A stretch of DNA of 33,397 nucleotides from a virus: the IMG/VR virus record IMGVR_UViG_3300003322_000890, positions 1 through 33,397 of that record, one strand, 5' to 3'. Of this stretch, positions 921-17,838 are shown piece by piece. Position numbers and translations under genes: made by a program. The notes beneath the pieces are model-generated. The model was not told where the DNA came from. It did no database searches and saw only the letters and a program-made list of their open reading frames with translations. Position 1 is the first letter of the stretch, and each line of letters starts with the position of its first letter.

Positions 921-1216
921 CGCTTTTGCTCCCAACGCCGGATAAGCACGGTTACACTCGATAAGGCTGGCCACAAGAGCGGTATCAGCCACGGTTCAAT
1001 GGGGCCAAACAGACCAACCAGCACCGCAACAGGAAAGGCTATCCACATCGACACACAGAAGATGCACTGAATGCCTTCACGCAGGTTGCTGCCTTCTGGT
1101 GTACTCTCACGCAGTCGAGTAAACATCTTAAATGGCCCGGTTTCCTCGGCAATCATCTTGGCGAGACGGTATACAGCCAGTGCTGCAATTGCAAATATGA
1201 ACCACATAATCACCAC
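917..1216 (-). CDS. DUF1360-like small membrane protein
   Basis: This 99-residue protein has a hydrophobic N-terminal segment (about residues 4-16), a central stretch with GPF, LRE and a CIFC cysteine pair, and a C-terminal hydrophobic region with one or two possible membrane spans. The pattern hydrophobic-YRLAKMI-GPF-R-CxxC-xxW resembles the DUF1360 family of phage and Bacillus membrane proteins. The function of that family is unknown to me. The start is uncertain: GTG at 1216, GTG at 1213 (overlapping the upstream stop as GTGA) and ATG at 1207 are all possible. It lies between a glycosyltransferase and the Asp-box protein with short overlaps, so it is part of the late operon. Confidence 0.7.
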   Translation of the reverse strand: MVIMWFIFAIAALAVYRLAKMIAEETGPFKMFTRLRESTPEGSNLREGIQCIFCVSMWIAFPVAVLVGLFGPIEPWLIPLLWPALSSVTVLIRRWEQKR

Positions 1217-2025
1217 GTCTTATGCGCAAATAAAATAACTTCATCACCGACCGTTGCCGTGTTGTGCATGCCCCAACCATCGAATGGCGGGCCTGGATAG
1301 CCCCAATGACCGTGGGTGTGAAACGTCTGCGGTAGCACCACGCGCTCAAAACCTTCATTGATGCATAAATTCAATGTCCACTGCTGCACAGCTATGTGGG
1401 CAAACATTGGAGCGGTATCGAGCCAGCGCTTGAGATAGGCCATCCAGAGCTTAATCCACGTTGCCTTGGTAGCTACCACACAGCCGGCATTACCAATAGG
1501 CGCCTTGTGCTCTTGCCCAAAGTAGGCAAGCGTATCCTCGTGGCTGAGCAGCGGGTGAATGCGCACCAGCTCATTGCCCATCGAATCGCCGCCAAGCTTT
1601 GGCTCGTTCGGTCCTATGCCTACCTGTCCATCCTGCCAATCCTGTAGCCACTGCCATTCATCAGGCGTAAAGCCTCGCTGCATCTTGACATCACCATCGA
1701 TACAGATAATCACTGCATCGTCTGGGCAGTCGAAATATGGCAGCCAGTTGCCGTGCTGAATGCAGCCATTGCCTGGATTGCCAAGGCCACGATCAAGCAT
1801 ACCTTTGGGTATGGTGTAGCACTCAACTCCTTCAATCTCAGCACACGCACCAACCAGGCCAAGCGCCACACAAGCGGATCCAGCATTCCGCTTGAGATAG
1901 TCAAGCGTGCCAATCTCCGCAAGCCGCGCCAGATAGTTCTGGGTCGCTATGGTTGTGATGATGACCGGACGAACACGAGTCCTTGTCTCTGACTGAACAC
2001 GTGTTCGCCGTTGGCTCTGACCCAT
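1210..2025 (-). CDS. GT-A-type glycosyltransferase-like protein
   Basis: This protein has 271 residues from the ATG at 2025. That start has an AGAGG ribosome binding site 8 bases upstream and is preferred over longer upstream frames, which would run deep into the methyltransferase gene. IICIDGDVKM carries a DxD-like metal and nucleotide-sugar motif, typical of GT-A glycosyltransferases. Downstream motifs (GNAGC, HTHGHWGYPGPPFDGWGMHN) suggest a compact single-domain enzyme. The start overlaps the end of the methyltransferase gene by about 79 bases in another frame. It belongs to a cluster of three glycosyltransferases and one methyltransferase, so a role in glycosylating virion proteins or host surface glycans is plausible. 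The substrate is unknown. Confidence 0.7.
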   Translation of the reverse strand: MGQSQRRTRVQSETRTRVRPVIITTIATQNYLARLAEIGTLDYLKRNAGSACVALGLVGACAEIEGVECYTIPKGMLDRGLGNPGNGCIQHGNWLPYFDCPDDAVIICIDGDVKMQRGFTPDEWQWLQDWQDGQVGIGPNEPKLGGDSMGNELVRIHPLLSHEDTLAYFGQEHKAPIGNAGCVVATKATWIKLWMAYLKRWLDTAPMFAHIAVQQWTLNLCINEGFERVVLPQTFHTHGHWGYPGPPFDGWGMHNTATVGDEVILFAHKTW

Positions 2026-2516
2026 TGCGTTGCCTCTGTATCTAAGACCCAACCACGAAGACCCAACAGATTGACCCAATACGCTTGTGGCTGACAATTA
2101 ACGTGATGATGACCAGGAAAGCCAGGCGGCGCGGCTGTTAAGAACAGCACGCGACCGCCGTCAAAGGTCGCAAGGTAGTTATCCTGATAGTCAGCCTCAA
2201 CATGCTCAACAAACTCAGTGCACCAGATAAGATCGAACGCTTCAGCAATCAGCGGTTCTTTGGTGTAATCGTGGGTATAAATAACGCCTTCAACGGCAAC
2301 ATATGGATCGCCATCGATGCCGAGCACCTCAAGCCCCCACTCTTGCGCCAGTCGCACCATGCCACCAGGCCCACAGCCGACATCAAGCATTGAGCGAACA
2401 TTGAACCGCCTAATCAGATAGAGCAGTGTTTGAGCATCCATGTTGGTGTTCCCGAAATGTCCACCAAGATGCTCAGGTAGTGTTCGCTCTTCTGCTGTCA
2501 GTGGTTGGTCGGTCAC
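1947..2516 (-). CDS. class I SAM-dependent methyltransferase
   Basis: MLDVGCGPGG is a standard SAM-binding motif I. It is followed by an acidic residue at the end of strand 2 (VLGIDGDPY) and the motif IV-like FDLIWCTEFVEHV, which is typical of UbiE/Methyltransf_11-type small-molecule or sugar methyltransferases. I place the start at GTG 2516, where GGAG sits 8 bases upstream, giving 189 residues. A longer ATG start at 2555 exists but has a weaker ribosome binding site and overlaps the preceding small gene more. Among glycosyltransferases in the late operon, it may cap or modify sugars. The substrate cannot be read from the sequence. Confidence 0.82.
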   Translation of the reverse strand: MTDQPLTAEERTLPEHLGGHFGNTNMDAQTLLYLIRRFNVRSMLDVGCGPGGMVRLAQEWGLEVLGIDGDPYVAVEGVIYTHDYTKEPLIAEAFDLIWCTEFVEHVEADYQDNYLATFDGGRVLFLTAAPPGFPGHHHVNCQPQAYWVNLLGLRGWVLDTEATQWVRANGEHVFSQRQGLVFVRSSSQP

Positions 2517-2646
2517 GTAGTTTTCTCCGATGCTTGCGGGCTGCGATGGCGCCACGTGTTTGGCTGAGTGGTTTGGTCTGGTACTCTCTATCGCGTTTTC
2601 GCTGTTGTGCTAGCCGCCACTGAAGCCGCTGTTGCTGGCTGGCCAT
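2473..2646 (-). CDS. small basic hypothetical protein
   Basis: This is a 57-residue, very Arg/Gln/Lys-rich peptide with an ATG at 2646 and an AAAGG ribosome binding site 6-7 bases upstream. It is mostly predicted helix and looks nucleic-acid-binding or structural, but I recognise no family. It overlaps the start of the methyltransferase gene by 44 bases. Its first codons sit in the DNA that also carries the left copy of the RKAHGWP-coding repeat, so part of this frame may have arisen when the HNH gene was inserted. It may not be a real gene. Confidence 0.4.
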   Translation of the reverse strand: MASQQQRLQWRLAQQRKRDREYQTKPLSQTRGAIAARKHRRKLRDRPTTDSRRANTT

Positions 2647-2669
2647 CCGTGCGCCTTTCGTTGCATAAA
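2641..2669. repeat. left copy of imperfect direct repeat flanking the HNH gene
   Basis: GGCCATCCGTGCGCC and the following bases resemble 3198-3228 at the other side of the HNH gene. On the minus strand both copies can encode the same peptide, RKAHGWP, with synonymous differences. The right copy is the present C-terminus of the glycosyltransferase. The left copy looks like the pre-insertion end of that gene. Confidence 0.5.
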
Positions 2670-2673
2670 ACCG

Positions 2674-2702
2674 TTGATTTTGGCTTCCCAATGCGATATA
2701 AT
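2674..2702 (+). promoter_or_regulatory. sigma70-type promoter of the HNH/AP2 gene
   Basis: TTGATT (2674-2679), a 17-base spacer and a perfect TATAAT (2697-2702). It faces the HNH gene and is opposite to late-operon transcription, so the inserted gene carries its own promoter. Confidence 0.75.
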
Positions 2703-2720
2703 ACACATAAGGAGAATGCC

Positions 2721-3194
2721 ATGATTACGATTTCAGCTACTCGCGGTATTACTGTTTTGCTTGACGATTGTGATGCTGACTTGCTCGATCGGAGCTGGCA
2801 CGCTACGGCTAAAGGATATATCGCAGCTCGTGCAAAGCCTCGAAAACTTGGAACTGTATATATGCATCGCATCATCTTGGCTCGTATCCTTGGCCGTGAA
2901 CTACTGCCGTCTGAGCAAGTAGATCACATCGATCTGAATAAGAGCAATAACCAGCGTTCCAACTTACGTCTTGCAACCGCTTCTCAAAACCAGCAAAACC
3001 AACTTGTTGATGCTCGATCCAGTACCGGCTATAAAGGTGTTCAGTATCGCAAAGATGTTGGACGCTATCGTGCTCGATTAGACAAGCAACACCTTGGATA
3101 CTTTGAAAGTCCTATCGCCGCCGCACTTGCCTATAATCGCGCCGCTATCGCTGCCTATGGTGAGTTTGCTCAACTAAACAATGTTTCCGAATAA
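2721..3194 (+). CDS. HNH endonuclease with AP2-like DNA-binding domain (free-standing homing type)
   Basis: This protein has 157 residues from the ATG at 2721, with AAGGAGA 6-9 bases upstream. The central part (QVDHIDLNKSNNQRSNLRLAT) is a classic HNH_3 core with the D-H pair and the N-x-R-x-x-NLR helix. The C-terminal part (STGYKGVQYRKDVGRYRARL...HLGYFESPIAAALAYNRAA) matches an AP2 DNA-binding domain. Such HNH-AP2 proteins are mobile homing endonucleases common in phages. It lies on the strand opposite the late operon, has its own promoter and lower GC than its neighbours, and is flanked by an imperfect direct repeat. Its 3' end overlaps the 3' end of the glycosyltransferase gene by 25 bases. 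All of this points to a recent insertion. Confidence 0.92.
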   Translation: MITISATRGITVLLDDCDADLLDRSWHATAKGYIAARAKPRKLGTVYMHRIILARILGRELLPSEQVDHIDLNKSNNQRSNLRLATASQNQQNQLVDARSSTGYKGVQYRKDVGRYRARLDKQHLGYFESPIAAALAYNRAAIAAYGEFAQLNNVSE

Positions 3195-3832
3195 GGCGGC
3201 CATCCATGCGCTTTGCGCCATTCATAAATCTGATGATCACGATCTGCGCGCTGGCGTCCTTCCTGATAAACCTGATCGTCAACTCCTCCAAAATATGGGT
3301 GATCATGGTAAAGAGTGGCCCATGGAGCCTTCACGTAAACACCATCCTGGATTGCGCGTTGACACAATTCTGTGTCCCCATAGTTGTGATCGTAAATTGT
3401 CGGCCAGCCACCATACCGCTCAAGCAAGCCACGATGGATCAAAAAGTGACAGCTATGCCCAGTCTCGTGATGGCCATCGTTGAAGCCAACCATGCCTATG
3501 CCGTCGCCAAAGGTTTCCTGGTAGGCTGCCACTGCTCTGGCTAGCCAATGCTGGCCAGGCAGTAAGTCATTGGCGAGATTGACGATGAGCGGTGTATCAC
3601 GCTCTACCATCGACATTGCCAGAGCATTCCAATACGTCATGCGATCGGTTTCAAAGCCAATACACGCCACTCGCGTTGGGTCAAGATGTTGAGCAATGGG
3701 GCGAATATCTTGCCGCGTCCCAACACAGATCATTGCCCAATCCTGATAGCCGGCCGTGCCAAGCAATCGCTTCACATTGCGTGCTGTCTGCTCTGGCCGG
3801 CCTCGACATGGCATGATGGCTACAACGTTCAC
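3170..3832 (-). CDS. glycosyltransferase-like protein (GT2/GT-A fold)
   Basis: The protein has 220 residues. The N-terminus (VVAIMPCRGRPEQTARNVKRLL) has the GT-A start pattern for nucleotide binding. NLANDLLPG replaces the usual DxD with ND, and YDHNYGDTELCQRA resembles the acceptor-side ED motif. Late-operon phage glycosyltransferases of this type are common, but substrate and target are unknown. The C-terminal residues after RKAHGWP are encoded inside the inserted HNH cassette, so this protein's tail was probably rewritten by the insertion. It overlaps the upstream gene by 4 bases. Confidence 0.7.
   Translation of the reverse strand: MNVVAIMPCRGRPEQTARNVKRLLGTAGYQDWAMICVGTRQDIRPIAQHLDPTRVACIGFETDRMTYWNALAMSMVERDTPLIVNLANDLLPGQHWLARAVAAYQETFGDGIGMVGFNDGHHETGHSCHFLIHRGLLERYGGWPTIYDHNYGDTELCQRAIQDGVYVKAPWATLYHDHPYFGGVDDQVYQEGRQRADRDHQIYEWRKAHGWPPYSETLFS
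3198..3228. repeat. right copy of imperfect direct repeat flanking the HNH gene
   Basis: Partner of 2641-2669. It encodes RKAHGWP near the present C-terminus of the glycosyltransferase. Both copies also share a TTTATG block on the minus strand just upstream. Confidence 0.5.
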
Positions 3833-4125
3833 AGCTTCACCAGCACGCCAGTGTTGATATCACGCCAACGCCCATCTTTATCCTGATGCACATAGCGCAC
3901 ACTTGTATTGGCTGGGCCTGTTGCCTCTTCAATGGCCTTCAAAATGCGCTCAGTTGACCAGGTGCTGACAATGCCTCTCTGGCCTAGATGCGCATCATTT
4001 GCAAGCGGTGTTAAAACAATCTGCGTGCCGTCTGCTTGGTCGCCTAGATGGGCAAGCTCATCGTGCCAAAAAGCAGCATGACCTTCCTTTGTGGCAACCT
4101 TGATGAGTATTCGTTCTCGATACAT
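3829..4125 (-). CDS. hypothetical phage protein
   Basis: A 98-residue protein not assigned to a family. It looks alpha/beta, with a hydrophilic middle (EGHAAFWHDELAHLGDQADG) and a C-terminal RYVHQDKDGRWRD strand. It overlaps the downstream gene by 4 bases and shares the A of its start with the stop of the upstream glycosyltransferase. It is clearly co-translated within the decoration-gene cluster. No function can be proposed beyond that context. Confidence 0.6.
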   Translation of the reverse strand: MYRERILIKVATKEGHAAFWHDELAHLGDQADGTQIVLTPLANDAHLGQRGIVSTWSTERILKAIEEATGPANTSVRYVHQDKDGRWRDINTGVLVKL

Positions 4126-5180
4126 CAGGCTGCCGCCCTTCCGCGTGGCCTCAGCACCTTGGCTGGTGCATCAGGCGTAAGCACGTCGGTTGCCTGCACA
4201 ATCGGCAGCGGCGCCGGCGGTGGCAGTGCTGGGTCAAGCTTTGGCACAATCCGAATCTCGGCACCGATGCTCAGCAGCCAATCAGCCTGTGCTGGTGTGA
4301 CATCGGCATAGCGCCGGCTGGCCGTATTCCCGAGTCGAATGAGCGTGCCAGGTCCAAGGTCATACGGTACCGATGCCTCTTGACCGATGTACTGCACTCG
4401 CACGAGGCCACCAATATCAACCGCCTCGGGTGCTGGCGCGCCTGCGACTGCGATGCCAGCAATCTGGGCTAAGGTTGCATCACCTCCACAACAGCTTGCC
4501 ATTCTGATTACTCCTGTGTCATCGATATACCGTCGCCTGACGATGGCCATCAGCTCGGGATCGCCGCCATAGAAGCGGGTCATCCGATCGCCTTCATAGA
4601 CGCGGTAGACAAAGATCGGTTGGTCGGTGCGATAGCCGCAGATGCCAGCCTTGGCCAGTCGAATATGGAACGCCCAATCTTCCCAAGCATCGCCTTCTTC
4701 GTCGAGGCCACCAACAGCCTTCACCTGGTGCGCTGGTATCAGCGTGGTGATGACGTGCAGGTTGTACTTGGCCATATCGACCTGTACATAGTCTGGCGCA
4801 CCTCTGAGCATCAGCGAGCCGTCACGCTCCTTGGTGTAGGCATTGCCATAGATGTAGCCATACTGGCCTGTGCTGTAGGCTCTCAGCAAGTGCTCAAGGC
4901 CACGTGGCAGCAGGTAATCATCAGCATCAAGGAAGGTAATAAAGTAGCCACTGGCCAGCGCCACGCCGCGGTTGCGCGCGGCAGCTGGGCCGAGCCGCTC
5001 ACCTGTCGACTGCAAGACCGTCACACCAGGCATTGGCGCGATCTGGGCATCCCCATCACCAACCACGATGGTTTCAATTGGCCCAACGCTCTGCCACTTG
5101 GTTGAAGCTGCTGCCACACGGCAATGCTCAGCGTGGCGTGGTCCTACGGGTATGATGACTGAGACAAGTGGCTGGGTCAT
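4125..5180 (-). CDS. family 2 glycosyltransferase fused to a C-terminal phage domain
   Basis: The protein has 351 residues. Residues 1-220 form a family 2 glycosyltransferase: VSVIIPV at the N-terminus, GPAAARNRG, the FLDADD metal-binding motif at 84-88, and EDW at 167-169 as the likely catalytic base region. From about residue 227 the sequence changes to MASCCGG and a second domain ending in Pro/Ala-rich linkers. The second domain begins with a Met and resembles a stand-alone small phage protein, so a gene fusion is likely. The second domain could anchor the enzyme to, or be a part of, the virion. The domain boundary is visible; the anchoring role is inference. Confidence 0.82.
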   Translation of the reverse strand: MTQPLVSVIIPVGPRHAEHCRVAAASTKWQSVGPIETIVVGDGDAQIAPMPGVTVLQSTGERLGPAAARNRGVALASGYFITFLDADDYLLPRGLEHLLRAYSTGQYGYIYGNAYTKERDGSLMLRGAPDYVQVDMAKYNLHVITTLIPAHQVKAVGGLDEEGDAWEDWAFHIRLAKAGICGYRTDQPIFVYRVYEGDRMTRFYGGDPELMAIVRRRYIDDTGVIRMASCCGGDATLAQIAGIAVAGAPAPEAVDIGGLVRVQYIGQEASVPYDLGPGTLIRLGNTASRRYADVTPAQADWLLSIGAEIRIVPKLDPALPPPAPLPIVQATDVLTPDAPAKVLRPRGRAAA

Positions 5181-5608
5181 CGCATCACCGCCTGCCAGAT
5201 GCCATAGGCCGAGAGCGTGAGCATGAACAGAAGGCCAAGCGCTAAGCCAATGGCTATCTGAGCAATGATTGGCAGATTATTTGATGCTCGGCTACTCTCA
5301 AGCTCAAATATGCGCTTACTGAGATCGGAAGTGCGAGCCAGAACATTCTGACGTTCTTGCATCACCCACTCATAGGTCACCAGCCATTGGCCATTCATGA
5401 AGTAGACTGGCCAATTGGGTAGTGTGCGCTCAGTCAGGAGTCGATCGACCTCTTTGCGAACATAAATGCGCACATCGTCAGGCACTTCAGGAAAAGTTTC
5501 AGCATCGATTACGGTTTCATCAGGCTCAGGAATGAACATACCCCCATACATCTTGTATGGTTCAAGGTCTGGAAGCCTGTCACCAGGTCGATAAAAACCT
5601 TCTGACAT
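5177..5608 (-). CDS. coiled-coil protein with C-terminal membrane anchor
   Basis: The protein has 143 residues. An acidic, Pro-rich N-terminal half is followed by a predicted coiled coil (about residues 83-108, EWVMQERQNVLARTSDLSKRIFELES is the core region). A single hydrophobic span follows near the C-terminus (IIAQIAIGLALGLLFMLTL), then a short basic tail. The start overlaps the previous stop as TAATG, and the end overlaps the glycosyltransferase start. The layout coiled coil plus C-terminal anchor could suit a spanin-like or membrane-tethering role, but no lysis gene is recognisable beside it. I leave the function open. Confidence 0.6.
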   Translation of the reverse strand: MSEGFYRPGDRLPDLEPYKMYGGMFIPEPDETVIDAETFPEVPDDVRIYVRKEVDRLLTERTLPNWPVYFMNGQWLVTYEWVMQERQNVLARTSDLSKRIFELESSRASNNLPIIAQIAIGLALGLLFMLTLSAYGIWQAVMR

Positions 5609-5913
5609 TACCGGCCTGCCTTTCCGCGCCCAACGGGCACGACTGGTAAGCCTTGGTCGATGCGCTGCTGCTGGCTCTGCTGGAAGGTGTTAACCCGAGT
5701 GATGGCCTCAAGCTCCTCACGCTGCAAGCGCTCCATGTTTTCTCGGGCTGTGCCGGTGATGCGCTCCCAGTAAACTTCAGTGCCGACTAGCCAGCGAACA
5801 AAGGTATGCCCGTAATCGTCTTCTGCGATCTGCTTAATGTCGGCTGACTGAATGACCAACGTGCGGTCTTCTGGTGTACCTTTTCTCGGTTTAATTGTGA
5901 AGGTGCATAACAT
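5608..5913 (-). CDS. hypothetical protein downstream of RNA element 1
   Basis: The protein has 101 residues from the ATG at 5913, with GGAGAG 5 bases upstream. The N-terminus is beta-rich (CTFTIKPRKG, RTLVIQSADIKQIAED), and the C-terminal third is a charged helix that ends in a basic, Gly-rich tail. No family is recognised. It is the first gene after the capsid gene. The gap between them holds a conserved structured RNA whose loop can pair with this gene's ribosome binding site region, so its expression is probably set apart from that of the capsid. Confidence 0.6.
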   Translation of the reverse strand: MLCTFTIKPRKGTPEDRTLVIQSADIKQIAEDDYGHTFVRWLVGTEVYWERITGTARENMERLQREELEAITRVNTFQQSQQQRIDQGLPVVPVGRGKAGR

Positions 5914-5918
5914 TGCTG

Positions 5919-6008
5919 CTCTCCTTTACAGCCTCCAGTAAATTGGTCAGATGTGGAGCGTTGCGGCTGGAGAGTCCGCTGTTCGGTTGCAAGCCTAGCC
6001 CCACATCT
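5919..6008 (-). ncRNA. structured RNA element 1 (candidate cis-regulator, shared with 12721-12809)
   Basis: Read on the minus strand, stem P1 is an 11-bp helix (6008-5998 with 5959-5949, one G-U). Inside it are the conserved UAGGCUUGCAACCGAA and stem P2 (GCGG/CCGC) with a loop containing CUCUCCAG. Downstream, 5942-5925 forms a second hairpin (UUUAC/GUAAA) with loop UGGAGGCU, directly followed by the GGAGAG ribosome binding site (5924-5919). CUCCAG in the P2 loop can pair with CUGGAG of the second hairpin, and CUCUCC with the GGAGAG itself. The element starts 14 bases after the capsid stop codon. The same architecture recurs at 12721-12809. I recognise no known RNA family. Confidence 0.7.
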
Positions 6009-6021
6009 CTGCGTAATCCGC

Positions 6022-7434
6022 CTAATTGCCTCGACTATTTGGATAGAAGTACGGCAGTGGCGTATTGACAAGACCACCATTAACGAAGTAGGTCTCATCA
6101 GGTAGCGCATCGCGCTCGTGAATGCTGATGGTGTAGCGCAGGTTCTGCATCTTGGCAGCCAGGAACGGTGTCATCAGAATGAGCCGCGGCCGCTCGATAA
6201 TCTCTACGCTGACACAGGTGTGGGTTGGGCTCTGTCGAACCTGAAGGAACCGGCCATTTTGCAGCACTGAGAAGTAGCCGCTCGGTGCCATCTTGGCTGC
6301 CGCTGCAATGGCCTGCTCATTAAAGCTGAAGTACTCCCAGAACAGCGTGGGCTCACCATTCGCGGTTAGCGGCAGGAAGTACACATCACTCTGGTAGTTG
6401 CCAACCACACCGCCGGCTGCTGGTGTCTCGGTGATCATGTCGTCGACAATCACTTCGTACCGCTTGCCTTCGATGAGCAGGTACTTGCCTTGGCGCATGT
6501 CATCGCGCATCTTGGTCGCTTCCTCAAGCGACTGCGTGCGGATAACCGTGTTGACACCACAGCCCGATGTGGCGTACACACACGGCCAGATGTTGGTCAT
6601 TGCCCAGAAGGCGCCATAGCGCATCGTCAGTGCCCACTTGACCTCAAAGCCAAGCTGCTCGGCAAGCCGCTCAAGGTTCGTGACGATGTTGGCAATCACG
6701 CTGTAGACAGTTGACCCGCTGGTGGTGACATTCGTACCGTTGAAGTCGTACACAATGCTGTCAGCCGCTGGGCAAAGCGTGCCAGTCACAGCATCGCGCT
6801 TGCCAGTCGACACAAGCAGATCCAGACCGCGGTACTGCATCCAGCCTTGGCTGCCAGCTGTCACCTGTGGGTTGCCGGTATAGATGTAGCGGCTGTAGTC
6901 TCGGAAATATCCGGTGTACAGCTCGGCCATCTTCTTTTCGGCTTCGGTCTGAAGCGCGCGGCCCCAGTCAATGGGCGCGGGCGCGTTGTTCTGACCCATA
7001 TCCGGGTTGCCAAACAACACGTTGTCAGTGAACTCACCACGGTTGATGATCTGGCCGGCATACTTGATGTTGAGCACCTGGCTCTCACGACCTTGCTGCC
7101 CAAACGGGTGCTGCTGTCGGCAGGCCTTGAACTGTCCAACCACTGGCCACGACGCACAGGCGGCTGTTGGCTCGCTACCAGTCGAGGATGTGAGGCCAGT
7201 CAGAATGGCAAAGATCTCATTGGTATCAATCGACGGCCGTACCGGAATGCGACCCGACAGGCCGCGCGGCATGATCGTCGCGTTGACAACCTGCTTATTG
7301 AGGCCAGGCGTAGCCAGTAGGCCACCAGGCCCGTGGAGTTGGGCGCCCGCTGTTGTGCCAGCGTCCTTAAAGCTGGCGGCCATCAGATTCAGCATCTGCA
7401 TAGCTTGCGGGGTCAGTGACAAGGTTGGTTCCAT
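6022..7434 (-). CDS. major capsid protein
   Basis: The protein has 470 residues. It directly follows the protease-scaffold gene, is long, and has the mixed beta-rich composition of HK97-fold capsid proteins. Its C-terminus (FVNGGLVNTPLPYFYPN) resembles the P-domain end of phage coat proteins that follow fused protease-scaffold genes. The N-terminal 33 residues form a helix-rich extension ending at the peptide HGPGGLLATPGL (residues 34-45). That exact peptide also occurs at residues 43-54 of the protease-scaffold protein, which suggests a maturation or binding site. Assignment rests on gene order and the C-terminal pattern, not on a database search. Confidence 0.85.
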   Translation of the reverse strand: MEPTLSLTPQAMQMLNLMAASFKDAGTTAGAQLHGPGGLLATPGLNKQVVNATIMPRGLSGRIPVRPSIDTNEIFAILTGLTSSTGSEPTAACASWPVVGQFKACRQQHPFGQQGRESQVLNIKYAGQIINRGEFTDNVLFGNPDMGQNNAPAPIDWGRALQTEAEKKMAELYTGYFRDYSRYIYTGNPQVTAGSQGWMQYRGLDLLVSTGKRDAVTGTLCPAADSIVYDFNGTNVTTSGSTVYSVIANIVTNLERLAEQLGFEVKWALTMRYGAFWAMTNIWPCVYATSGCGVNTVIRTQSLEEATKMRDDMRQGKYLLIEGKRYEVIVDDMITETPAAGGVVGNYQSDVYFLPLTANGEPTLFWEYFSFNEQAIAAAAKMAPSGYFSVLQNGRFLQVRQSPTHTCVSVEIIERPRLILMTPFLAAKMQNLRYTISIHERDALPDETYFVNGGLVNTPLPYFYPNSRGN

Positions 7435-7446
7435 CGTGCAAGCTCC

Positions 7447-9933
7447 TTAGTTTGCTGGCCGCTGCTGCCAGCCATTTGCGCCGTCGTAATACAGCTCTGG
7501 AATAATCGCGGCTGTGGCTGCCGCCATAGGCCGGCTGGGATCGTTCGGGATCTGCGGTTTGGTCGGATTGGCATCGGCTGGCACCGTTGGACCGGCACTC
7601 TTGAGCGCCGCCGCAACATCACCAGGCAGAATGGTTGCCGGCTGCTGGCCTTCGATCTGTGCGATCCTATTTGCAAGCGCAATCTGCTGCTCTTTGAGTG
7701 TGGCCAGCTCCTTGGCGCGGGCATCATCCTTGGTCGTAGCGCCGCTGTACATGGACTTGAGCTCACCATGGATATCACCCATGGATTTGAGCATGTCCTG
7801 AAGCTTGAGCACAGGTGCGAGGCGCTCATCAAGCATGGCAAAGAACTCATCAGGAGTCATGTTGCCAAGCACGTTGGCGTCCATCTCGTCTTCAGGTTCT
7901 GCCATCTCATCAGTGACAACCTCGTCGAGCATCGGATCGGCTTTCGTCTCCTCAACGGCCATCACCTCGTCTGTGGCTGGTTCAGGCGGTGGTGCGGCCT
8001 TGAGCGCGACAAACATGCCGTCTTGGATAATGCCTTGTGTGCCATCAGGCGCGGTATACACCGGCTGTGCATCGGTGCTCTTGAAGGCAATGCCTTGGGA
8101 CTGGGCAGCCTTCTCAGTCGCAACCAGCTGCTGGCTGAGTGCTGTGGCCTGATCGGGTGTGAGACTTAATTCAGTAATCGCCGCCTTAAAGCGGCGCTCC
8201 ATCTCTTCTGGGGTCATACGAGACTCCTTGACCGTGAATCCTGTGAACAGGTTTGAAGCACGCGCATGCCTGGTTGGCACCAAGCTGCGCTCAAACGTGC
8301 GTATATCGGTAAACACCCCATCAATTGGCTGGATATCGGGGTGAAAAAAGCCGGGAGACATTTCGAGTTGATCGGCAATCGCGGCAACCTGCTCAGCAAT
8401 TTGCTCGCTCTTGAAGGTGCCACTCTCGACTCGCGTGCGACCAATCACTATCGAGTAGTCACACCAACCGAGATCGATACCAGGCCCCCACGGAGCATCA
8501 CTGCTGAACTCATCTGGCTTACCGACATGCCACCACCGCAATGGCCCAAACTGCTTGGTAGCCATCATGCGCTGGCTGTCCTGATCAAGCGTGGCCTCAG
8601 CAATAATCTCTTGGTCGCGGTCCTTATAGGCGGTTGTGGTGCGGCTGAGCCAGCGGCGATTGCCGGTTGCGTCCTTGTAGGTCGTAAAGCTCTTGACCGC
8701 TCGCACACCGCGCGTAAGCTTTTCCATTCGAGCATCGTGCTCAGCTTGGCGGCGCGCATCAGTCTCAGCTTGTCGCTTGGCGCGTTCGGCTTCACTGTTG
8801 GCTCGCCTGGCTTCATTCGCGGTACGGCGCTGCTCGACATCAGACCGGCGCTGCTGTGCTGCCTGCTCGCGGCTCATGCGGTTCTGTGCATCTTGAACAG
8901 CTGCTCGATAGCCTGCAACATCACCACGCTCAAGTGCAGTCAGTGCCCGCCTGCCTTGGTCGGTTGCCAGGCCATCACCAGAATCTGAAACCAAGCCAAG
9001 CGCGGCTAATTGCTTGGGTGCAGGTGTCTCACTTGGTGCGTTACCTTCTGCTGCCGCACGTAGTGAATCAACTGCATCTCCTGAGAGTCCAACCTTGCTT
9101 GCCGTATCGCGTGCTGTCTGCACCTTCTTGGCGTCTGCCTGCTGCTTCTTTTCATCGTCAGCTGGCTTAGCTGGCTTTGCACTGCCACCACCCCCGCCTT
9201 TTTTGGGTGTTTCAGCCTTTGGCTGCTTAGCTGCTGTCTCTCGTGCCTTGCTCAGCGCGGCATTCATCCGGCCAGCATCACCACGCATTGCGCTATCAAC
9301 CACGCTAAAAGCGGCTGGCGTCAATTCATACTTTCCATCAGCTCCCAACTTGGCCAGGCCCATTGCTGCCATCTTCTCGCCATTGGCCGGTGTAATGGTG
9401 TTGCCGTCTCTCGCATCGACCAATGCACCTTGGGTATTGGCATCAATCCCCGCTTCAGTCAGGAGCCGATCACGAGTCGCGCGCTGCTCGGCTTGCGCCG
9501 CCTCGCGCTTTGCCTGCTGCTCTCGCTGGCGCTGCTCAGGTGTTTTGGCTGGCTTCTTGGCTGCCGGTGCTCGCTTGCCACGGCCTTTAGGCTGCTTGAG
9601 CGGCTTCACTTCTGGTAACGTATCTGTGCGCTTGGGTGTGCGACCTTTGGCCGGCGTACCTGTACTTGAACCACCAGCACCGCCCGCCTGAAACTTGCCG
9701 TTATCACCTCGATAGAGGTTGCCAACAATCTGCTTAGCCTTGAGGCGCTTGCCCCATCGCTTGCGGCTGCCAAGTCCTGGTGTTGCCAACAGACCACCAG
9801 GCCCATGCGCTGGTGCTGCTTCTTCCTTGGCAGCGGGTAGGCTGGCATATGGCGTCATATGCGACCATCGCCGCGCAAACGGCTGGCCTGTTGCATACAT
9901 CCATCGCCACTGTTTTTTGCTTCTTGCCGGCAA
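7447..9933 (-). CDS. prohead protease-scaffold polyprotein with long N-terminal extension
   Basis: The protein has 828 residues from a TTG at 9933, with AAAAGG 8 bases upstream. Residues 1-30 (MPARSKKQWRWMYATGQPFARRW) form a basic motif seen at the start of many phage head proteins. HGPGGLLATPGL is at 43-54. Two related domains lie at about 157-235 and 275-350, followed by a charged, coiled-coil-like stretch to about 410. Residues about 416-570 are a serine protease domain with the WWHVGKP histidine (H469) and FERSLVP serine (S550), matching the His-Ser layout of HK97-type (U35/S78) prohead proteases. Residues 573-828 are acidic and helical (ELKSMYS, KELATLKEQQIALANRIAQIEG) and fit a scaffold. 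It should act inside the procapsid and cleave itself and the coat. Confidence 0.85.
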   Translation of the reverse strand: MPARSKKQWRWMYATGQPFARRWSHMTPYASLPAAKEEAAPAHGPGGLLATPGLGSRKRWGKRLKAKQIVGNLYRGDNGKFQAGGAGGSSTGTPAKGRTPKRTDTLPEVKPLKQPKGRGKRAPAAKKPAKTPEQRQREQQAKREAAQAEQRATRDRLLTEAGIDANTQGALVDARDGNTITPANGEKMAAMGLAKLGADGKYELTPAAFSVVDSAMRGDAGRMNAALSKARETAAKQPKAETPKKGGGGGSAKPAKPADDEKKQQADAKKVQTARDTASKVGLSGDAVDSLRAAAEGNAPSETPAPKQLAALGLVSDSGDGLATDQGRRALTALERGDVAGYRAAVQDAQNRMSREQAAQQRRSDVEQRRTANEARRANSEAERAKRQAETDARRQAEHDARMEKLTRGVRAVKSFTTYKDATGNRRWLSRTTTAYKDRDQEIIAEATLDQDSQRMMATKQFGPLRWWHVGKPDEFSSDAPWGPGIDLGWCDYSIVIGRTRVESGTFKSEQIAEQVAAIADQLEMSPGFFHPDIQPIDGVFTDIRTFERSLVPTRHARASNLFTGFTVKESRMTPEEMERRFKAAITELSLTPDQATALSQQLVATEKAAQSQGIAFKSTDAQPVYTAPDGTQGIIQDGMFVALKAAPPPEPATDEVMAVEETKADPMLDEVVTDEMAEPEDEMDANVLGNMTPDEFFAMLDERLAPVLKLQDMLKSMGDIHGELKSMYSGATTKDDARAKELATLKEQQIALANRIAQIEGQQPATILPGDVAAALKSAGPTVPADANPTKPQIPNDPSRPMAAATAAIIPELYYDGANGWQQRPAN

Positions 9934-9951
9934 AGTAGATGCCTTTTAGGT

Positions 9952-9998
9952 CAAAACAAAAGCGGCGTGCCACTCCCCGTAGGAAGCAACACGCCGCT
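9952..9998 (-). terminator. intrinsic terminator or attenuator upstream of the protease-scaffold gene
   Basis: On the minus strand AGCGGCGTG (9998-9990) pairs with CACGCCGCT (9969-9961). An inner helix CUUCC/GGGAG is capped by a UACG tetraloop of the stable UNCG class, and the hairpin is followed by UUUGUUUU (9960-9952). It lies between two co-oriented late genes, 19-65 bases before the TTG start, so it probably reduces rather than ends transcription. Confidence 0.75.
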
Positions 9999-10024
9999 GG
10001 CTTTTCAGCGAAAGGCGCGATCGG

Positions 10025-10228
10025 TTATTGGTTATCGCTATTTAGTATAGCATGCAATGCAATAGTGCTATGGGTAGATTCTCGGCGCTCTTCACGACTG
10101 ACAATCGGACAAGGTTTGCCAAGTGCACGAGCGAGCGCACGCACGGTGCCAATAGCCTGACGGTAGGCATCTTCAAGGTTCTTGCGCTCCTCTGCGGTTA
10201 GAATAGGTTGTAGTGCTGTGTCGCTCAC
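10025..10228 (-). CDS. small hypothetical protein
   Basis: The protein has 67 residues from a GTG at 10228 that overlaps the previous stop as GTGA. The first half is a predicted amphipathic helix (TAEERKNLEDAYRQAIGTVRALARAL) and the C-terminus is hydrophilic. No family is recognised. It is the last gene before the terminator-like hairpin that precedes the protease-scaffold gene. Confidence 0.6.
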   Translation of the reverse strand: MSDTALQPILTAEERKNLEDAYRQAIGTVRALARALGKPCPIVSREERRESTHSTIALHAILNSDNQ

Positions 10229-10587
10229 AACATCACCTTCAAGGTTGCTCGACTATGTGCACGGTCCCATGCCCACGTTACCCGCTGCTCATCGTTGGGT
10301 ACAACACTCTCAGCGGCCAAGCGTGAAAGCTGCATCTGCTTGGCCAGCCACGCACCAGGATCGGGCCAGGTTGGGCGTAGCGCACTCAACAGCAATTGGA
10401 GCAAGATGCCATTGCGCTGAGCGATGCCAAACTGATCAGGAGGAAACAGCGCTACTGCTTCGACCCGATCAGACCAGATGTCAATCACAAAGCCGGCACT
10501 GACACCTATGGTGCGCTGGCCATCTTCACTCTTTGACCAGGTGAATGATGCTGGTGGCTTTGAAAAGAGATCAATTAACTGCTGCAT
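10225..10587 (-). CDS. hypothetical protein of the head-completion gene group
   Basis: The protein has 120 residues and starts 17 bases inside the end of the gp10-like gene. It is alpha/beta, with a strand pair (GQRTIGVSAGFVIDIWSD) and a C-terminal helix. Its position between a gp10-like head-tail protein and the protease gene is where connector or tail-terminator proteins can occur. The sequence itself gives no family match that I can name. Confidence 0.6.
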   Translation of the reverse strand: MQQLIDLFSKPPASFTWSKSEDGQRTIGVSAGFVIDIWSDRVEAVALFPPDQFGIAQRNGILLQLLLSALRPTWPDPGAWLAKQMQLSRLAAESVVPNDEQRVTWAWDRAHSRATLKVML

Positions 10588-11044
10588 CTATCGCTCGCTG
10601 CATAATGCCGCCGGCCAACCGTCGCCACTTCTTTGCTATGGCCTTGTCCCAATTGCGTGCCTCAGTGCCAGGATGGTTCACACCTCGGCTGAATACCTCG
10701 TTATTGCCAATGCTGCCTGCGCCTGAGCTAATCGAGTTTGGCCGTGTCTTGGCTCTGAATGGTGTATTGAACCGTAACACACCACCATTCCTTGGCAAAA
10801 TGCGATGTGGCTGCGTGCCTCTATTGAGCATCGAATAAATCTCATCGCCGGTTGATATGATGCGTACCCAGATGCTTGGCGCTTCAATTGTGAAGCTGGC
10901 TGGATCATCCCACGTCTGTACGGTCACCTCAAAGTCTATTTTCATCGACTGAGCAATACCGTTCATCTGGTTGGTCATCACCTGTGCCATCTTGCGCGGA
11001 TCGCTCGGCAGACTCTTGGGTATGATGGCTCGTGACTTACCCAT
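10571..11044 (-). CDS. HK97 gp10-like head-tail joining / tail completion protein
   Basis: The protein has 157 residues. The centre (LNRGTQPHRILPRNGGVLRF) and the later FSRGVNHPGTEARNWDKAIAKKW...IMQRAIDAA match the pattern of HK97 gp10-like proteins: a short W/GT-H motif, a beta hairpin, then v-HPGt followed by a C-terminal helix. Such proteins sit at the neck or tail end and complete head-tail joining. The location downstream of portal and head morphogenesis genes is consistent. The start is ATG 11044, overlapping the preceding small membrane gene by 8 bases. Confidence 0.72.
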   Translation of the reverse strand: MGKSRAIIPKSLPSDPRKMAQVMTNQMNGIAQSMKIDFEVTVQTWDDPASFTIEAPSIWVRIISTGDEIYSMLNRGTQPHRILPRNGGVLRFNTPFRAKTRPNSISSGAGSIGNNEVFSRGVNHPGTEARNWDKAIAKKWRRLAGGIMQRAIDAAVN

Positions 11045-11210
11045 GGTCTATTCGATAGGCTGCATAGATGCAGGATGCAACAACCGCAAGCGATAGGCCA
11101 ATATTAAACCACCGTGCACTAGGCGTAATATTATTGCGGAATAGATTCGAGCCCACTGAAAGACCGGCAAAGGCAGCCAGCACAATCAAGCCGATGATTT
11201 GCGTGCTCAT
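11037..11210 (-). CDS. small two-span membrane protein
   Basis: The protein has 57 residues from the ATG at 11210, which overlaps the stop of the head morphogenesis gene as ATGA. Two hydrophobic segments (about residues 4-20 and 34-50) are joined by a short hydrophilic loop (FRNNITPSARW). The size and two-span layout resemble small class II holins, but there is no endolysin nearby and small membrane proteins are common in this operon (see 16189-16290). The function stays open. Confidence 0.6.
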   Translation of the reverse strand: MSTQIIGLIVLAAFAGLSVGSNLFRNNITPSARWFNIGLSLAVVASCIYAAYRIDHG

Positions 11211-11764
11211 ACCTGCAACACTCCATCTCTGATCCGCACTGGTGACCAACTCATCTCACGCTGCACACATGTTTGGCACGAGTCAGTAGCACCACGCCGC
11301 CAATACGCATCATAGTTGTTATCACCGTCGAGCTCTACCACTTCCCACTGACACTTGCAGTTGGTCAGACACTGTGTGCCTTCCGCCGGCATAGCTGGTA
11401 GTGGCAGCAGTTTGGTAGCACCTCTCCAGTATGGCACCTGGATCGACCTGGCATACATCGCTGCTCTGGCCTTCCAACCTGCCATGAACTGGCCAGCCTC
11501 TTGTATCTCGATACCAAACCGCTCCAAGTACTTGAGCTGCACCCGTAGGTCTTCGGTGACTGACGTGCGCATGGTCGGTGTCAGTTGATCGGTATCAGCT
11601 CCTGTCAGCATCGCGGCCGAGTGGTAGCGCGCCAGTTGCCTCGATAGCTCTTGCTCCCAGGCCTGCACACCATCTGGGTACTGTGTCTCAAGCGCCTCTG
11701 TTGCGGCTTCTATGAGCCGCACGAGGCGCTGTATCAGCCAGTTGAGTGGGTCAGTGCTGGGCAT
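11207..11764 (-). CDS. phage head morphogenesis / minor head protein
   Basis: The protein has 185 residues. The N-terminal half is helical. The C-terminal half has PAMPAEGTQCLTNCKCQWEV and DSCQTCVQREMSWSPVRIRDGVLQ, a cysteine-rich signature seen in phage minor head proteins of the Mu F / SPP1 gp7 type, where the Cys residues may bind metal. It lies directly downstream of the portal and ParB-like genes, the usual place for this family. It starts 1 base before the ParB-like gene stop region ends, so it is tightly coupled. Confidence 0.78.
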   Translation of the reverse strand: MPSTDPLNWLIQRLVRLIEAATEALETQYPDGVQAWEQELSRQLARYHSAAMLTGADTDQLTPTMRTSVTEDLRVQLKYLERFGIEIQEAGQFMAGWKARAAMYARSIQVPYWRGATKLLPLPAMPAEGTQCLTNCKCQWEVVELDGDNNYDAYWRRGATDSCQTCVQREMSWSPVRIRDGVLQV

Positions 11765-12721
11765 TTATTGCCACCATTGCGCCATATCTGCTGGCACTCC
11801 ATGTATCCTCAACACTGAACGGGGATCGGATACTTTTGGCTGCTTCATTGCACGACCTTCCATGTAGGCATTAAAGCATCCTGCAATATAACGAGCACTG
11901 TATGCTATTGAAACAATATCCCCCGTAGCATCAGTAACCGATGATATGACCGATGCAGTCATTAAATGGCGATTCACAAACTTGCGAGGATCGCCAACCT
12001 GGATACCATCATCGAAAGCTGCCCCGCGCCAAAAATCAATAACCGATGGCTCTTTGCGTACCTTTGCCAATGGGTCTGCGAATCGTAATGTCAGCAATGC
12101 CATGCTCAGTGTTGATGACCTAAAAAGACTCCTGTTTAGGTGACGATCCGACTTTTCCATGAGCTTGAAATAATCTCTGGCATATGGAGCATATAGGCGT
12201 ATCCACCGTACCATGTCGTCTTTATGAAGAGCCTGAGAGCTATTTGGGTTGCGTAGGCAACCAGTGCTCATAAAGTTAATGGCACCGCTGAGATATCGAA
12301 TCTGCGTTTTTGTGCAGCCGATTTCAACATCAAGCTCCATTGCCCCAAGCAAATGTGCCCCGGTTCTTCGCATGCCAATATCAGTGTTGCCATATATCCA
12401 GGCAATCTCTTCCTTTCTTGCAACATGAGTAGTCAACACTGTGAACTGCTGCTTGGTTTCTGAGAGAATTACCGCCCATAAACGGTGTTGACCATCAACG
12501 ATTGAATGCTTGCCATCACAAACAACAACGTGTATTTGCGTGCCTTGAATAAACCGACCCCGCCGCATCTCTTCAGCCAAAAACTCAACATGCTCTTGGC
12601 GAACATTCCGTTGATGCTCGTATTGCATCGTTTCCAGCCAAAACGTTGCCATTGCCGGTGTCATTTCCTGAGTGACGACCTTGCCAACACTTCGTGCGGC
12701 TGCAAATACTTGGGAATCCAT
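11765..12721 (-). CDS. ParB-like DGQHR-domain protein in the head operon
   Basis: The protein has 318 residues from the ATG at 12721, with AGGAGG 8 bases upstream. A longer in-frame ATG eight codons upstream lacks a ribosome binding site. IVDGQHRLWAVI is the core motif of ParB/Srx-fold DGQHR proteins, preceded by EMRRGRFIQGTQIHVVV and followed by a long helical domain (about residues 120-318) typical of phage-borne DGQHR proteins. Some ParB-fold proteins are CTPases or nucleases, but the role of this one is unknown. Base composition is more AT-rich than in portal and TerL. It is inserted between portal and head morphogenesis with its own RNA element upstream, so it looks like an added cargo gene. 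Confidence 0.78.
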   Translation of the reverse strand: MDSQVFAAARSVGKVVTQEMTPAMATFWLETMQYEHQRNVRQEHVEFLAEEMRRGRFIQGTQIHVVVCDGKHSIVDGQHRLWAVILSETKQQFTVLTTHVARKEEIAWIYGNTDIGMRRTGAHLLGAMELDVEIGCTKTQIRYLSGAINFMSTGCLRNPNSSQALHKDDMVRWIRLYAPYARDYFKLMEKSDRHLNRSLFRSSTLSMALLTLRFADPLAKVRKEPSVIDFWRGAAFDDGIQVGDPRKFVNRHLMTASVISSVTDATGDIVSIAYSARYIAGCFNAYMEGRAMKQPKVSDPRSVLRIHGVPADMAQWWQ

Positions 12722-12809
12722 CACACGCCTCCTGTGTGACCTCACTTATAAGCGCACGGCAAGCGGTGGAGGTTAATACCGCTTTTCGGTTGCAAGCCTA
12801 GCCGTGCGC
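12721..12809 (-). ncRNA. structured RNA element 2 (candidate cis-regulator of the ParB-like gene)
   Basis: On the minus strand P1 is GCGCACGGC (12809-12801) with GCCGUGCGC (12760-12752), nine perfect pairs that share no sequence with element 1 except the inner GGC. Inside is the same UAGGCUUGCAACCGAA, then P2 AAGCGGU/ACCGCUU with loop AUUAACCUCC. Downstream, 12739-12721 forms a 6-bp hairpin UCACAC/GUGUGA whose 7-base loop is AGGAGGC, the ribosome binding site itself; the last stem base is the A of the AUG. CCUCC of the P2 loop is complementary to GGAGG of this loop. The portal stop codon is 9 bases upstream. Confidence 0.75.
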
Positions 12810-12817
12810 TGGATACA

Positions 12818-17714: not shown

Positions 17715-17767
17715 CGCAGATCAATACCACTAGATAGAGGATGCGGAGTGTGGTAGGATACAAAGTC

Positions 17768-17824
17768 AGACCCGGCAAAGCTCAGGCAGGCTGTAGCAAG
17801 CACCTAGAGCTGGTAGCCGGGTCT
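17768..17824. repeat. large hairpin downstream of the secreted-protein gene
   Basis: AGACCCGGC (17768-17776) pairs perfectly with GCCGGGTCT (17816-17824). An inner helix (AGCTCAGG with CCTAGAGCT, one bulge) extends it. It lies 15 bases beyond the stop of the gene at 17839-18423. There is no clear U-tract on either strand, so it is a weak terminator or a processing/structured RNA. Confidence 0.5.
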
Positions 17825-17838
17825 TCTGCGTAAATAGG

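Follow-up and report, generated by a model that had tools for sequence, protein, structure and literature searches.

A putative int-alpA leader RNA with a loop complementary to the Shine-Dalgarno site of an exchangeable phage gene

Introduction

RNase P processes the C4 RNA of phages P1 and P7 (Rfam RF01695), which has a role in immunity (PMC5320573). In the P1 record, the c4 RNA is followed immediately by its target sites and icd, and the loop of its stem P3, CACTAAC, fits the b2/Shine-Dalgarno (SD) site GTTAGTG. Another RNA, IsrK of the Gifsy-1 prophage, is reported to exist alone and as part of an mRNA (PMC4825925). For the Rfam family int-alpA (RF02996), the database gives the type sRNA and lists the function as unknown; our literature search found the family merely listed, without a description of function. 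Here, we analyze two elements of this kind in a viral contig of 33,397 nucleotides (IMG/VR record IMGVR_UViG_3300003322_000890; the whole stretch is called the window below), together with about 200 relatives.

Results

Structure of the two copies

An earlier note, made from the letters of the window, had placed two copies of an unassigned structured RNA on the minus strand. Both were confirmed at the positions given there, with structured cores at 5949..6008 (copy 1, supported by the identical core, a match to our covariance model R1 and orthologues) and 12751..12810 (copy 2, supported by matches to RF02996 and R1). The two share an identical core of 23 bases, and CTAGGCTTGCAACCGAAnAGCGG occurs exactly twice in the window, compared with a mean of 0.00 in 100 shuffles of it. 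The distances from the upstream stop codon are 13 and 7 bases; the first is within the previously given range of 9 to 14, the second is not. Also as described before, the outer stems are unrelated in sequence, yet pair perfectly or nearly so in each copy: P1 of copy 1 is formed by AGATGTGGGGC and GCTCCACATCT (6008-5998 with 5959-5949, minus strand; 11 base pairs including one G-U) and that of copy 2 by AGCGCACGGC and GCCGTGCGCT (12810-12801 with 12760-12751, minus strand; 10 base pairs). On the same strand, P2 is closed by G5995-C5985 in copy 1 and by G12798-C12788 in copy 2, while P3 pairs 5979-5976 with 5966-5963 and 12782-12779 with 12766-12763, respectively. The P3 loops, L3, are ACTCTCCAG (5975-5967) and TATTAACCTCCA (12778-12767).

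The folding z-scores of the cores are -3.17 and -3.15. For copy 1 alone, the minimum-energy fold (-24.8 kcal/mol, versus -22.3 kcal/mol for the family fold) retains P1 and pairs the interior otherwise; P2 and P3 of copy 1 therefore rest on comparison. The core of copy 1 is also off consensus at otherwise conserved positions, with a GAACA joint and with AAC in place of CU. Model R1 gives 38 bits for copy 1 and 56.6 bits for copy 2, both being among the model's own sequences.

By eye, no promoter of their own is evident for the window copies. Among the elements, -10-like sites are present just upstream in 25%, versus 2-7% in controls, and a dedicated promoter was rejected as a rule, given that only this quarter has such a site. 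Elsewhere on the minus strand of the window, at 17766-17828, a 9-bp outer stem (AGACCCGGC/GCCGGGTCT) around CTA..TG resembles P1; it does not enclose the GAAAAGCGG core, scores 9.1 bits with R1 and is possibly a decayed copy of the element or a terminator.

Family membership and spread

The earlier note had recognised no known family in these RNAs. This did not hold for copy 2, as cmscan matches 12740-12808 to RF02996 int-alpA at 44.6 bits, where the curated cut-off is 35.8. Copy 1 (5932-6005) scores only 14.5 bits, under the same cut-off; by its identical core and its orthologues we take it to be an int-alpA relative, though not a member by Rfam's rule. RF02996 scored above the cut-off in all 11 further loci tested. 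The P1/P2/P3 junction with its CUAG, CGAAAAG and CUG joints is present, copy 1 deviating in two of the joints. A self-cleaving ribozyme with a hammerhead-like junction was rejected by eye, as the core does not contain the catalytic bases.

Pattern scans yielded at least 120 matches in viral contigs and 103 stretches in species genomes, the latter mostly from Pseudomonadota and Planctomycetota, with some from Nitrospirota, Acidobacteria and others; counts drawn from these pattern-selected sequences are not a census. Of 49 records, 45 contain one element and four contain two, and a regulon of many copies per phage was rejected because of this predominance of single-copy records. One deltaproteobacterial contig (L157) has two family elements on the minus strand, at offsets 3661 and 4340, about 680 bases apart, and their L3 loops differ from each other. 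A phage carrying int-alpA (L012) also contains, at 2653-2735, Proteo-phage-1 (RF03044), an Rfam RNA without known function.

Covariation of the helices

An alignment of 60 sequences bears out the earlier view of a conserved structured RNA with covarying helices, and homologues with covarying P1, for which that note had proposed a search in related phages, were found. Nine of the ten P1 pairs change on both sides, and two of the three P2 pairs covary. P3 had seemed invariant because the first search pattern contained it. This apparent invariance was discarded as an artefact of the pattern, since it disappeared in a set in which P3 was left unconstrained: P3 is fully paired, with four pairs, in 77% of 31 elements, compared with 10.5% when the arms were dealt anew, and the pair type varies at positions 2, 3 and 4. 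The joints UA, GAAAA and CU form the conserved part and are nearly invariant, partly because they are fixed by the search patterns.

In related phages (L291, L295, L297/L298 and L300), orthologues of copy 1 likewise come directly after the putative capsid gene. In four of these loci (L291, L295, L297 and L300), the sequences of P1, P3 and P4 (the SD hairpin described below) have all changed. P3 reads GATAG/CTATC, GGTGG/CTACC, GGTAG/CTACC or GCAG/CTGC, and in four to five orthologous copies both sides of the P4 stem change around a constant AAGGAGA loop. These changes make up what we regard as the strongest local evidence for the two predicted hairpins.

Two loop-complementary sites and an SD hairpin before the start codon

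Whereas the earlier note had the core right, its element was incomplete in extent, for the unit goes past P1. On comparison, the element appears to reach to the start codon of the following gene and to include two downstream sites, an SD hairpin and the start codon itself. In most elements, L3 is complementary to a site A just after P1, starting 14-20 bases after P3, and to a site B, which overlaps the SD of the next gene and mostly ends 7-11 bases before its start codon. L3 matched two distinct sites, each of 5 bp or more, in 55 of 81 dereplicated elements (68%), versus 4.9% with the loops swapped between elements, a control that keeps SD content and takes shared ancestry into account only in part, and 1.5% with the downstream sequence shuffled. 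In loci fetched later by other searches, the values are 45% versus 2.3% swapped (n=40), and in the P3-unconstrained subset, which overlaps the former, 58% versus 2.6% (n=26). About 20% of elements do not have two clear sites, even at 4 bp. Mean L3 duplex energies, which take no account of tertiary context, are -6.4 kcal/mol for A and -7.6 kcal/mol for B, against -2.7 and -4.8 kcal/mol with swapped loops. Since anti-SD-like sequences are common among the loops, B pairs strongly even with swapped loops, and it is the excess over that level that matters.

The position of the start codon is steady, the middle half lying 40-47 bases after P3, with an ORF at the expected start in 153 of 156 elements. 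Hairpins (P4) with stems of at least 4 bp were found in 113 of the 153 elements examined for them, versus about 47 in shuffles, and site B is located inside the P4 loop in 89.

Both window copies have this arrangement on the minus strand. In copy 1, ACTCTCCAG fits site A, CTGGAG (5933..5938; duplex -10.1 kcal/mol), and site B, GGAGAG (5924-5919; -10.8 kcal/mol), which is the SD and is in the loop of a P4 hairpin (5915..5932) made by GCTG and CAGC, 5932-5929 with 5918-5915. In copy 2, the AACCTCC stretch of L3 fits GAGGT at site A (12739..12743; -7.1 kcal/mol) and GGAGG, the SD, at site B (12732-12728; -9.6 kcal/mol); P4 (12722..12738) pairs CACAC, 12738-12734, with GTGTG, 12726-12722, directly before the ATG, and it forms in the minimum-energy fold. 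The A and B duplex energies are comparable, as in a poised switch, and the two pairings should exclude each other, as they use the same L3 bases.

A slot for one exchangeable gene

The genes that follow 149 leaders encode proteins of 113 clusters, among them HNH, GIY-YIG and endonuclease VII proteins, methylases, DUF1376/primosomal proteins, pRha, integrase and many unknowns. Such genes have no common pathway, unlike those behind metabolite riboswitches, which makes it improbable, in our judgement, that the conserved junction binds a small molecule deciding between L3-A and L3-B pairing. Riboswitches commonly act through alternative pairing onto the SD, the element is spread over hosts of several phyla and the unpaired joints of its compact junction are near-invariant (in part through the search patterns); conserved joints could, however, serve folding or a protein instead.

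We compared 80 pairs of loci in which both the upstream region and the leader are homologous. In 36 of them, homology breaks off behind the leader (for example L082/L092, L021/L026 and L027/L112), and these come from 10 phage groups, one of which is the window family. The break lies a median of 80 bases past CTAG, where P4 ends; homology resumes downstream in 32 of the 36 pairs, and the variable stretch has a median length of about 910 bases. On this comparison, the leader forms the fixed 5' border of a slot that takes different single genes; one gene per variable stretch is read from ORF lengths in the listed groups, and some stretches exceed the first ORF. The sharp end of sequence identity at the end of the leader, with the gene behind it swapped, would also suit a DNA-level recombination site that acquires genes through an attC-like single-strand fold, its complementarity to the SD being incidental. 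We give this very little credence, as the positions of site B and P4 are tied to the start codon and SD, and homologous recombination in the conserved flanks accounts for the swaps.

The antirepressors AntA, pRha and P22_AR occur behind the same leader type (L307/L319 and L348/L378). Matches to PADLOC defence models among the cargo are few, mostly to generic nucleases and methylases, and defence cargo as a rule was rejected on this count. The cargo proteins of four loci (L079, L095, L124 and L147), otherwise different, seem to have an N-terminal stretch 'WLxxExAxxWLxxLT' in common, which may be a common regulatory domain.

Genes around the window copies

Copy 1 precedes a gene for a 101-residue protein without assigned function (5608..5913, minus strand, start codon at 5913). 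In L291, L297 and L300, the gene behind the leader encodes a homologue, while an unrelated 66-residue ORF takes this position in L295 and L322. Behind copy 2 is a gene for a ParB-like protein of 318 residues (11765..12721, minus strand, start codon at 12721; PHROG 5931 and 1033), for which no match was found in 14 related phage loci, no relatives by pattern scan of viral contigs and no match in a PDB sequence search. Copy 2 and this gene fill exactly 12817-11765. In relatives, the structural genes on either side abut or overlap, and the stretch 11765..12817 (minus strand) is absent. The simplest account is that RNA and gene were inserted into the window's phage as one cassette.

The names capsid and portal, which the earlier note had given to the structural genes upstream of the two copies, are consistent with the gene order beside the terminase; Pfam or PHROG matches are absent for both. 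The terminase itself matches Pfam Terminase_3, and its best matches among isolate phages reach 51% identity across half of the protein or 33% across nearly its full length. At 1210-5180, the window has glycosyltransferase-like genes (with a PHROG match for 4125-5180) and, by eye, a methyltransferase; these come after the structural genes here, as they do in most relatives.

Discussion

The comparison supports the predicted helices, the two complementary sites, their position on the SD, the P4 hairpin and the gene exchange. In our view, the element is probably a 5' leader controlling translation of the following gene through pairing of the loop with the SD, a reusable part with an exchanged cargo gene. 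The three-way junction of P1, P2 and P3 would present L3 as an anti-SD strand. On site B, the SD in the P4 loop, L3 would block the ribosome start; on site A, or otherwise occupied, it would leave the SD free, and some signal would shift the balance. We infer that pairing at B represses, pairing at A relieves and the signal tips this balance. Leader and flanks would stay, while recombination exchanges the single gene behind them.

The likeness in layout to C4 makes a trans-acting antisense role a serious rival, though the element is not a C4 member. The core would be excised, as C4 is by RNase P, accumulate in the lysogen and, when related phages come in, block the SD in their copies of the same leader, site A masking L3 in the uncut transcript. 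As in C4, RNA core, a site just after P1, an SD site and the start codon follow each other; L3 varies around a constant core, as a specificity loop would, and antirepressors are among the cargo of one leader type. The sRNA class in Rfam would suggest action in trans and counts against a cis-acting leader. Against this reading, a relation to C4 is undetectable (R1 scores the P1 c4 region at 4.8 bits), most cargo is other than antirepressor, the window RNA is inside a late operon, and C4 has two strands for its two targets, where here a single loop fits both sites, so that one molecule cannot hold both. We regard an immunity RNA of this type as possible but doubtful; our estimates for it and for the cis-acting leader overlap, because a C4-type RNA would also work via loop-SD pairing.

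Returning to the leader that we favour, the chances seem about even that it represents a widespread phage module in which any incoming gene is put under one RNA lock, with a decoy copy of the SD as the key, possibly read out by a common infection signal or a trans-acting RNA. If so, phages could trade cargo genes without re-evolving their regulation, and, if one trigger serves all, phages of many hosts would read a common signal. An Rfam family without known function would gain a concrete mechanism and target, and the exchangeable slot would explain its occurrence beside unrelated genes. The leader may also help to locate phage cargo slots by sequence; the genes in these slots (nucleases, methylases, antirepressors and many unknowns) are otherwise hard to find.

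Comparison with known systems

In the defence hotspots of P2 and P4 phages, too, the genes vary within conserved flanks although the phages are otherwise alike; these hotspots are often larger stretches beside cos (PMC9122126), whereas here one gene lies behind a structured leader. Unlike in those hotspots, few int-alpA cargo genes match defence models. IsrK, a prophage RNA, belongs to a different RNA family (PMC4825925).

C4 is nearer. It also has three stems, with a tetraloop-capped P2, a P3 loop complementary to the following gene's SD (as int-alpA was found to have), a target site just after P1 and a position in the leader of its target operon. In our analysis, int-alpA resembles C4 in layout, without detectable homology: covariance models detected none in either direction, and the C4 model had no match in the window or in 11 int-alpA loci, while the control, P1 c4, scored 68.8 bits. 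C4 uses separate strands, a' and b', where int-alpA has one loop for both sites; a separate a' strand is absent in int-alpA, the joint between P3 and P1 being only 2-3 bases long. C4 also has additional upstream a1/b1 targets.

The int-alpA model of Rfam has the same junction and core as the window element. As printed by cmscan, it ends near site A, with the loop pairing and the SD hairpin unmarked; the extension to the start codon, the loop pairing and the 5' boundary of the slot are new relative to it.
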